Source of the DNA: a bacterium
Lineage (GTDB): Bacteria; Patescibacteriota; Andersenbacteria; UBA10190
Length of the DNA: 57,310 nt
Direction: 5' to 3'
Assembly: GCA_030698495.1 (NCBI GenBank)
Contig: JAUYKA010000018.1
Location: 1-57,310 of the forward strand
Below, one piece after another: positions 9,151-19,768 of the stretch. The stretch's first letter is position 1. The number at the start of each line of letters is the position of its first letter. The notes beneath the pieces are model-generated. The model saw nothing but the letters and a program-made list of their open reading frames with translations. It had not been told where the DNA came from and made no database searches. Both the position numbers and the translations under genes were made by a program.

Positions 9151-10133
9151 GAGCTTGATGAAAAACTAACCTAAAGCACAAAAAGTGCTGTTTTTGGTAT
9201 GATAGATGTGCTAAACAAACTAACACCAAAACCAACACTTTTATGTACTCTCAACATATTCCTACCTACGCTAGGTTTCAATGGATAAACAGTCGCAGAG
9301 TAATTTGTCTTTTAGAACAAGCGCTACCCTATGCCGGCACAGGGCGGCGGGGTCATAGCAAATCTTTGTTGTTCCGCTGGCTGATGTACAAACAAGTGAT
9401 GGGTTGCAGTTACCGCGATCTAGAGAGTATGAGCGGTGTGGATTTCACTACCTTTATCAAGTTTCGTGAGAAAATTAAACAGCAATGTTGGCTGGATAAT
9501 GTTTTTACTATCGTTGCCAAATCAGTGGTTAAAACAAGAAAATCACTCACGCTCATTACCGATTCTTCCTTTGTTGAACAGTATGCCAGACATAAAGAAA
9601 CAGGTGCTGAATATTCTGGCCACAAAGAGAAAACCGGCTTTAAACTGCATCAAATCATTGATTTCCGTACTCGTTTGCCGATGGCACAAGTTACTACAGG
9701 TGGCGCGAGAGCGGATGTGATACTAGCCCAACAGTTGGTGCAGAAATTACCTAAACGTTGGCCAGTGAAATCCTTTCTGGCCGACAAGGGTTACGATAGT
9801 AATGCCTTTGCGCAACAACTGCATCACAAATGGTTCGGCATCAAAGTTGGTATACCGGTCCGACGAACTGGTCAGGCTGCGAGAAAATCTAAGCGACAGG
9901 AGACGCCACTGAACAGACAGGCCAAAGAAGCTAATCGATGCCTTGATCTAAAGCTCTACAACAAACGCACCGAAGTTGAACGCTACTTTAGCCGTAAGAA
10001 ATATGTCTTCAATCTGGGCTGTGAACGTACATGTGGCATCGATAACTTTGATACTAATTGCTTAATGACATCTGTAATGGAACAGCTGGAGTACCTGGCA
10101 CGGCCGGGGTTAGGCTAGTTTTTCATCAAGCTC
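9151..10133 (+). mobile_element. IS5-like insertion sequence with 24-bp imperfect TIRs
   Basis: Left TIR GAGCTTGATGAAAAACTAACCTAA (9151), right TIR reverse-complement GAGCTTGATGAAAAACTAGCCTAA (ends 10133); TGGGGG on both sides (9145-9150, 10134-10139). Confidence 0.9.
9243..10118 (+). CDS. IS5-like DDE transposase
   Basis: TDSSFVEQYARHKETG...; FLADKGYDSNAF; KRTEVERYFSRKKYVFNLG (D-D-E triad). Confidence 0.92.
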   Translation: MYSQHIPTYARFQWINSRRVICLLEQALPYAGTGRRGHSKSLLFRWLMYKQVMGCSYRDLESMSGVDFTTFIKFREKIKQQCWLDNVFTIVAKSVVKTRKSLTLITDSSFVEQYARHKETGAEYSGHKEKTGFKLHQIIDFRTRLPMAQVTTGGARADVILAQQLVQKLPKRWPVKSFLADKGYDSNAFAQQLHHKWFGIKVGIPVRRTGQAARKSKRQETPLNRQAKEANRCLDLKLYNKRTEVERYFSRKKYVFNLGCERTCGIDNFDTNCLMTSVMEQLEYLARPGLG

Positions 10134-17311: not shown

Positions 17312-17815
17312 ATGTATGGAAAACTAGCTAAACAAGCGGCCGAATATCTGGTTAAAAGCGGTAATATTTTGCCTTTTCCCGGTGTTTTGCTTCCTGACCT
17401 GCGCCGCCAGCGCGCTTGTTACGTATCGATTATAGAAAATCCCGGTCGACGCTTGCGCTCAATGTCCGGCTCCGTTCTACCCCAAACTCCAAACCTGGCC
17501 GCCGAAATCATTCACAATACATCCAATGCCCTCTCTGCTTGCCGCATTACTCGTCCCGATTTGCCTAACCTGCGTTACAGCGTAGCCTTACTTGGGACGC
17601 TGCAGCGCATTAGTGACCCATCCCATTTAAACCCGTCTTTGTATGGCCTCTATGTTACTTCCGACCGCGGTAAGTCCGCCCTCTTACTCCCTAACCGTGC
17701 CGGCATAGAAACCGCGGACGACCAAATTGCCACCGCTCTTCGCGAAGCAGGCATACTAACTCGTTACGAATCATATAGTCTTTACCGTTTCGACGTTTCT
17801 TATGACGATGCATAG
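17312..17815 (+). CDS. Hypothetical protein
   Basis: 167-aa ORF, no motif recognised. Confidence 0.5.
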   Translation: MYGKLAKQAAEYLVKSGNILPFPGVLLPDLRRQRACYVSIIENPGRRLRSMSGSVLPQTPNLAAEIIHNTSNALSACRITRPDLPNLRYSVALLGTLQRISDPSHLNPSLYGLYVTSDRGKSALLLPNRAGIETADDQIATALREAGILTRYESYSLYRFDVSYDDA

Positions 17816-17845: not shown

Positions 17846-19768
17846 TTGCCGATACACTGTGGAGATATGAACAAAATCACCCACCAGCCTATTTATGCCG
17901 ACGTAGCTCCATCTATACCCCTCTCTCCGTTGGGTAGACAAAGCTATACATACAAATTTTCCGGCAATCTTCCAACCGCCAATATATTACACCGCATTGT
18001 GAACATCCCCTTCGGTCCGCGTGTAATACCCGCCGTTGTACTCAAAACACACACCAGGGCATCAGTTAAGCCCCCCAAAACAGCCGTTTTACCTCATTTC
18101 CCCGTTTTTCTTACCCGCCGGCAAATACAATTCGCGCAAATCATCAGCTTAATTTCCCACGGTGGCTTGGGGTACACCTTGCGCCTCTTTTTTCCGGCCA
18201 ACATTAACAATCCCGCCCCGACAGATCAAGCTCTCTCAACCTATCGACCCTCTCGGCGCTTAACCAAACAGACGGCCGCCCCTCTTAAACCCGGCGGTGT
18301 CCATTCGTTATTGGAATCCAACCGCCTTTCTCGCTGGCGGGAATTTATACGCTTAGCTCAAATTACTTTGGGCCAAAACCAATCTGTCCTTATATTGGTA
18401 CCGGAAATATGGCTGGCCGAAGAATTAACAAAATATTTTCGCCGCTCTCTCCCGGATCAAACCGCTATTCTGCATAGCGGCCTTGGCGCCAGCGCCGGTG
18501 ACAATATCTGGCACTTGCTTTCTCGCAGTGAACGCGGACAAGTTATTATCGGCACGCAAAAAGCTCTTTTTCTACCCTGGCGACGCCTGGGCTTAATTAT
18601 TGTTGAAGAAGAATCATGGCCGGCGCACAAACTGTGGGATGCTTATCCTAAACTGGACAATCGATGGGCCGCCGCGCAGCTGGCTCAAATTCATAAAGCG
18701 CCGCTGATATACAGCGGTAGTTTTCCCTCTTTGGCTCTTTATTATTCCATTAAAAACAAAACAGTATCGGTACTGCGCGACAATCCTCAAAAAATAGCCG
18801 TCAATATTATTTATCCTTCCCCGTCGGACTATCAGAAAAAACTGCTTCTACCTAATCAATTCATTACCCAACTTAAAACCTGGCGCCGCCGCGGCAGTGT
18901 TTTTGTTTTATATAATCGCCGCGGATTTTGGGCGCACCTGTCCTGCACGTCTTGCCACCACGTCTTAAGATGCCCTACGTGCGAAGCTGTTCTGGCCGTA
19001 CCCGGCACTAAAAAAACCAACCAGCTTTTATGTCGGCAATGCGGCTGGCAAGGCGACGTGCCTCTCACCTGCCCCGAATGCGGTCAAAAAAAACTTCGCC
19101 GGGCAATTGCCGGCGCTAACCAAATCGCCGCTATTCTCAACCAAACAATTCCTAACGCCACTGTCAAAGTTTTGGACGCCGGTTCTGTTCGTAAAAAAGA
19201 CCATTTCTTTTCCCTGCTCGTACCGGGCAACATCTATCTTGGTACCACCGCGGCCTTTAAGCATATCGCGGCACGCACCGTTGACCGCGTTGCTTTTCTT
19301 TTGCCGGAAATGTCTCTTAATTATCCCGACTACCGTAGTCACGAACGTGCCGTCCTGCTAATTTCCCGCCTCCAATCTATTACTAAAGCTTCGCGTCCTG
19401 TAACACTCATCACTCGTCACCCTCGCCTGATTCAGGACGCCATTTCCTCCGGCATGCATACCTGGTACAACAAACAGCTTGCCGAAAGACGACGCCTCCA
19501 CTATCCTCCCTATAGCGATATGGTCCGCTTAACCGTTACCGCGCCCACGGACAAACAAGCGCAAAAAAAGGCTGTCGCCGTCCGCCACCGCCTAACCGCT
19601 GATAATCCCGAAATTATTACGCGCGGTCCGTTCGCCGGTTTTCATCCCGTCCGCCGGCGCCGCCGCGCCGCCCACCTAATCCTGCTGGGGGACGTTAAAA
19701 AAATGGCCGAAGCCTACCGCCATTTACCCGTCGATGCGGCCGATCTTTTTCCGCAGGATATTCTTTAG
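17846..19768 (+). CDS. priA: Primosomal protein N' (PriA)-like, degenerate helicase motifs
   Basis: VLVPE-like LILVPEIWLAEEL; ILHSGL; GTQKALFLPWRRLGLIIVEEE; NRRGFWAHLSCTSCHHVLRCPTCEAVLAV; CRQCGWQGDVPLTCPECG; MSLNYPDYRSHERA; LHYPPYSDMVRL. Start may be 17867. Confidence 0.88.
   Translation: MPIHCGDMNKITHQPIYADVAPSIPLSPLGRQSYTYKFSGNLPTANILHRIVNIPFGPRVIPAVVLKTHTRASVKPPKTAVLPHFPVFLTRRQIQFAQIISLISHGGLGYTLRLFFPANINNPAPTDQALSTYRPSRRLTKQTAAPLKPGGVHSLLESNRLSRWREFIRLAQITLGQNQSVLILVPEIWLAEELTKYFRRSLPDQTAILHSGLGASAGDNIWHLLSRSERGQVIIGTQKALFLPWRRLGLIIVEEESWPAHKLWDAYPKLDNRWAAAQLAQIHKAPLIYSGSFPSLALYYSIKNKTVSVLRDNPQKIAVNIIYPSPSDYQKKLLLPNQFITQLKTWRRRGSVFVLYNRRGFWAHLSCTSCHHVLRCPTCEAVLAVPGTKKTNQLLCRQCGWQGDVPLTCPECGQKKLRRAIAGANQIAAILNQTIPNATVKVLDAGSVRKKDHFFSLLVPGNIYLGTTAAFKHIAARTVDRVAFLLPEMSLNYPDYRSHERAVLLISRLQSITKASRPVTLITRHPRLIQDAISSGMHTWYNKQLAERRRLHYPPYSDMVRLTVTAPTDKQAQKKAVAVRHRLTADNPEIITRGPFAGFHPVRRRRRAAHLILLGDVKKMAEAYRHLPVDAADLFPQDIL

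Follow-up and report, generated by a model that had tools for sequence, protein, structure and literature searches.

A PriA homologue without helicase ATPase motifs in a patescibacterial genome

Background

PriA is the protein that restarts stalled DNA replication. In Escherichia coli, it owes its fork specificity to its 3'-DNA-binding domain (3'BD), to a loop of HD1 that is wedged at the junction and to a pore, framed by the cysteine-rich region (CRR), HD2 and the C-terminal domain (CTD), around the lagging-strand ssDNA; the CRR is both a pore-forming element and the docking site for PriB (PMC10175261). In vitro, DnaB loading is supported by the ATPase-dead E. coli variant K230A; in vivo, PriA-PriB restart does not require PriA ATPase (PMC10175261). 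E. coli dispenses with the motor for the PriA-PriB pathway, yet PriA proteins widely conserve it. In Deinococcus radiodurans, a "pseudohelicase" PriA neither hydrolyses ATP nor unwinds DNA, and it binds forks and DnaB (Lopper et al. 2015, PMC4504706). Actinobacterial PriA, in turn, has been called "smaller and very divergent" (PMC1193525). A first-pass annotation of the locus described here had presented a motor-dead PriA as surprising; with the D. radiodurans protein (PMC4504706) and the divergent actinobacterial PriA (PMC1193525) already described, that emphasis does not hold, and motor-less PriA is already a known kind of protein. Less ordinary are the recurrent loss of the motor within one phylum and the loss of the zinc domain in several species of the same family. 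A literature search, with most subscription journals outside its scope, found no paper on PriA in Saccharibacteria, CPR or Patescibacteria.

The window, by which we mean the whole stretch of 57,310 nucleotides that was analysed, carries a PriA homologue that can be set beside each of these proteins. Like the PriA of D. radiodurans, which belongs to another phylum, it is of PriA descent, has no working Walker A/B and keeps the DNA-binding body, and in both cases restart without a motor has been proposed (PMC4504706). Unlike the Deinococcus-Thermus proteins, in which the Walker A lysine is reportedly replaced by arginine and motifs I and II are poor, the window PriA has motifs I, III, V and VI gone or mostly gone. 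It is divergent, as is actinobacterial PriA (the NCBIfam PRK14873 group), yet it differs from that group in scoring 229.7 bits on TIGR00595 against at most 111.6 bits on the PRK14873 models, scores that also lie below those of several PRK05580 models. Since the canonical models outscore PRK14873, membership of the actinobacterial branch was ruled out, and the motor was probably lost separately. To our knowledge, actinobacterial PriA likewise lacks detectable helicase motifs. The ATP-independent recognition of forks and assembly of primosomes that we infer for the window PriA resemble what is stated for E. coli K230A/K230R in PMC10175261, where Zavitz and Marians 1992 is cited; those proteins, by contrast, carry laboratory-made point mutations in an otherwise intact enzyme, and PriB, DnaT and DnaC are not known as partners of the window PriA.

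The gene and its motor motifs

The gene lies in an uninterrupted open reading frame of 640 codons (17846-19768, + strand). Its start is probably the in-frame ATG at 17867-17869 (+) rather than the TTG, because a GGAG precedes it at 17861-17864 and the N termini of homologues fall nearby, and the protein would then have 633 residues. By sequence and predicted fold, the product is PriA. Its match to PriA models spans HD1, the CRR, HD2 and the CTD. Specifically, it matches TIGR00595 (E 5.7e-68, just under the cut-off of 230.35 bits for the window protein and above it, at 230.6 bits, in the genome search), PriA entries in the PDB match residues 166-604 at about 1e-34, and PF17764, the 3'BD family, matches residues 30-117 with an E-value of 2.2e-4 that is under the Pfam gathering score. 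These matches agree with the homology that had been noticed by eye. The putative 3'BD (about residues 16-117; 17891-18196, +) combines this weak match with strands and helices modelled at residues 16-115, and the CTD (residues 553-640; 19502-19765, +), delimited by the structure model and the alignment, begins at the invariant PP of YPPYS.

The motor motifs were read from an alignment of 89 PriA sequences from the same phylum, among which Walker A is present in 41 (motor intact) and absent in 48, and the first-pass readings hold at each position. Motif I (Walker A, GxTGSGKTE; 18314-18340, +) is lost and reads ESNRLSRWR (residues 157-165); motif II (DEEH; 18605-18616, +) reads EEES (254-257), with the aspartate changed to glutamate and the histidine lost; motif III (GSATPS; 18710-18727, +) is degenerate, SGSFPS (289-294) having no Ala-Thr; motif V (GTQMIxKG; 19241-19264, +) is mostly lost as GTTAAFKH (466-473); and the arginine fingers of motif VI (GRxGR; 19376-19390, +) are lost, the position reading SITKA (511-515). 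As read from this alignment, the residues for ATP binding and hydrolysis and the arginine fingers are missing. The claim that every catalytic motif is gone is slightly too strong, because the protein still has motif Ia (VPEI, 185-188), a pair of motif II glutamates and the GT with which motif V begins. These remnants are what a non-canonical ATP site still powering limited unwinding would have to work with, and we regard such hidden catalysis as very improbable: the Walker A Lys-Thr, the motif II histidine and the motif VI arginines are all missing, K230R by itself abolishes the ATPase of E. coli PriA (PMC4504706), and GxxxxGK[ST] occurs in none of the 48 motor-less PriAs, scanned as whole proteins. 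The window PriA contains no GK[ST] anywhere along its length, so realignment, which had been named as a refutation should it locate an intact Walker A, cannot recover one, and a misalignment hiding the motif was ruled out. An assembly frameshift was rejected as the cause of motif loss as well, since the frame is continuous and many independent genomes share the state.

Several other regions are retained. The CRR (residues 367-412; 18944-19081, +), whose retention had been noted, has all four CxxC pairs, at 367, 376, 396 and 409, which are predicted to form two zinc sites. The motifs NRRG (357-360), YPDYR (493-497) and YPPYS (553-557) are kept, as is the stretch after motif II (residues 259-273, PAHKLWDAYPKLDNR; 18620-18664, +), including K262 and P268, which we take to be the counterpart of PriA's aromatic-rich junction loop region.

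Predicted structure

Structure prediction, which had been suggested as a check, returned an intact PriA fold. The AlphaFold2 model reached a pLDDT of 88.5 and a pTM of 0.88 from an input alignment of 37 sequences, with motor-intact relatives among them to the model's benefit. The top nine Foldseek matches in the PDB are all PriA; by TM-score the closest is fork-bound E. coli PriA (8fak, 0.80), and by E-value it is 6dcr, a winged-helix deletion construct of PriA. The predicted domain order is that of PriA: the 3'BD, two helicase lobes, the CRR inserted in lobe 2, and the CTD. The winged-helix domain, which lies between the 3'BD and HD1 and went unmentioned in the earlier annotation, is absent, and the linker joining the two is 42 residues long compared with about 112-131 in relatives with the longer insert. 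A similarly short linker is found in most motor-intact relatives, and absence of the domain is therefore not disqualifying for a PriA; motor-intact relatives without a winged helix likewise led us to reject its loss as part of motor loss.

With the fork-binding parts kept and the motor lost, a passive role in fork recognition and assembly is the best explanation of the window PriA. Such a protein would recognise forks and scaffold primosome assembly without ATP hydrolysis. As it would not unwind DNA, it would need lagging-strand ssDNA that is already exposed or a helper enzyme: its substrates may be limited to forks or D-loops with a lagging arm that is already single-stranded, or another enzyme may expose the ssDNA for it, and RecG is present in the source genome.

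Genome context and restart partners

The source assembly is a draft of 1.16 Mb in 37 contigs that is rated 100% complete. Lack of uL30, small genome sizes and a great many families suggest that the phylum belongs to Patescibacteria/CPR. A TIGR00595 search of this genome found no second PriA, a canonical one having been named as grounds for refutation; other matches reached at most 55 bits, and those examined were of UvrB and RecG type, while a match of 1036 residues on contig C13 looks Mfd-like. We consider it likely that this is the cell's only PriA, that its helicase motor has been permanently lost and that the protein is kept as a passive factor serving recognition and assembly in replication restart, both the loss of ATPase activity and the restart role being deduced from the parts that are gone and kept.

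DnaB and DnaA are present, and the genome's SSB has a canonical tail, ending in DEEIRIEDIPF. No DnaB loader was recognised in the source genome, whether DciA, a DnaD/DnaB_2-type domain or a DnaC/DnaI type, and a search for proteins of IstB/DnaC type brought up DnaA, RecG and a ComM-like protein and nothing else, which counts against an assembly factor. This lack would suit a fold repurposed outside restart, for instance a recombination protein that binds ssDNA or forks in a structural capacity, perhaps tied to AMMECR1: a gene with an AMMECR1-domain match lies directly upstream of priA (17312-17815, +), and the two genes stay paired in each of the eight genomes of the family that yielded a PriA. 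The family also tolerates loss of the CRR, the PriB docking surface in E. coli (PMC10175261). Set against this, the window PriA keeps its fork-binding parts (3'BD, the loop after motif II, CRR and CTD) alongside the canonical SSB tail, and we judge repurposing to be rather improbable. Elsewhere in the window, an open reading frame at 9243-10118 (+) resembles, by eye, an IS5-type transposase.

Motor loss across the phylum

No PriA found in the window's family, or in the sister family within its order, has a motor, so the motif loss is common to every close relative surveyed, a point on which the first-pass annotation had wanted information. The 48 motor-less PriAs mostly retain their zinc cysteines, and those with a zinc domain have lost the motor residues in concert. 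Specifically, in family-weighted frequencies over the proteins with that domain, conservation is down to 0-26% for the glycine, lysine and threonine of Walker A, Ala-Thr of motif III, the glycine of motif V and the Gly/Arg positions of motif VI, against 89-100% for the zinc cysteines; P268 after motif II and the CTD's PP reach 100%, and Y36 in the 3'BD reaches 96%.

Across 384 genomes of the phylum, TIGR00595 matches at E <= 1e-17 in 185, of which, by hand count, 112 lie above 430 bits and the remaining 73 no higher than 353 bits, with a gap between. One PriA (L012; 1453-3588, -) scores above 520 bits and has no Walker A, lacks one glutamate of DEEH and lacks the motif VI arginines; it seems to have lost its motor recently and independently, and a filter on score would overlook it; the TIGR00595 score is therefore only a proxy for motor state. 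A broader PriA profile matches 202 of the 384 genomes at E <= 1e-20 and gives no match at that threshold in the other 182, all genomes with a completeness of at least 90%, which suggests complete loss of PriA, or decay past detection, in many lineages. PriA would thus be dispensable in about half of the sampled genomes, which counts against a restart factor.

A tree computed with the motif columns left out requires at least three changes between the intact and lost states, of which at least two are forced by well-supported branches. One family (f63) mixes intact and motor-less members, and L012 is placed beside the intact group. Branches are long, and the large motor-less block may therefore combine several losses. 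These long branches, the absence of a PriA match from about half of the sampled genomes and the loss of the zinc domain in species of the same family would all fit a decaying remnant, that is, a protein degrading stepwise in a small-genome lineage where PriA restart is not needed. Selection argues otherwise. In pairs from the same genus or family, dN/dS is 0.10-0.26 for motor-less and 0.06-0.13 for motor-intact PriA, many of these pairs being close to synonymous saturation and two further ones, of unbounded dS, being excluded. Related motor-less PriAs, in pairs from species other than the window's, evolve under purifying selection, and the motor-less genes are therefore maintained rather than drifting as pseudogenes. 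The relaxed selection that had been named as a reason to doubt the window gene is thus not seen in its relatives; the gene's own single comparison, with a nearest relative of 35% identity, gives 0.39 and is saturated. Together with the uninterrupted frame over 640 codons, the 48 divergent motor-less relatives that remain open with specific residues kept, and the AMMECR1-priA order conserved across the family, this makes a decaying remnant unlikely. The non-motor, DNA-recognition PriA proposed in the first-pass annotation remains the best reading, given that it is the genome's sole PriA, that every PriA found in its family and order is motor-less, that related pairs are under purifying selection and that its fold is predicted to be intact.

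Further trimming and separable sites

The scaffold has been reduced further within the window's own family, where PriA lacks the CRR in four species of one genus and in two further genomes (G002 and G003). The same-family proteins that lack the whole CRR along with the helicase motifs are L025 (1081-2691, +), L026, L027, L028, L118 (529-2295, -) and L119 (715-2139, -). They are PriA orthologues, as AMMECR1 adjoins them, and the tree places at least two losses of the CRR within the family. One of them, L025, with 536 residues, has a confident predicted fold (pLDDT 89.5). As a tentative broader reading, the phylum may have shed the PriA motor several times while conserving the fork-binding scaffold, and the window's family may have trimmed that scaffold further, with at least two losses of the CRR. 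If true, this would describe a restart factor pared down to a minimum of about 475-590 residues, independent of ATP, that has to work without the CRR pore or a known helicase loader. The intact, motor-less, CRR-less and apparently absent PriAs that occur side by side constitute a natural experiment on the parts needed for restart; as such, they point to specific proteins that may be minimal restart factors, and they warn against annotating such proteins as helicases.

In six PriAs of family f63 (L112, L113, L114, L115, L117 and L120), the motor is fully intact and two of the four CxxC pairs are replaced, for example by SPxS or DHxT, so that loss of the motor and loss of the zinc sites can occur independently.
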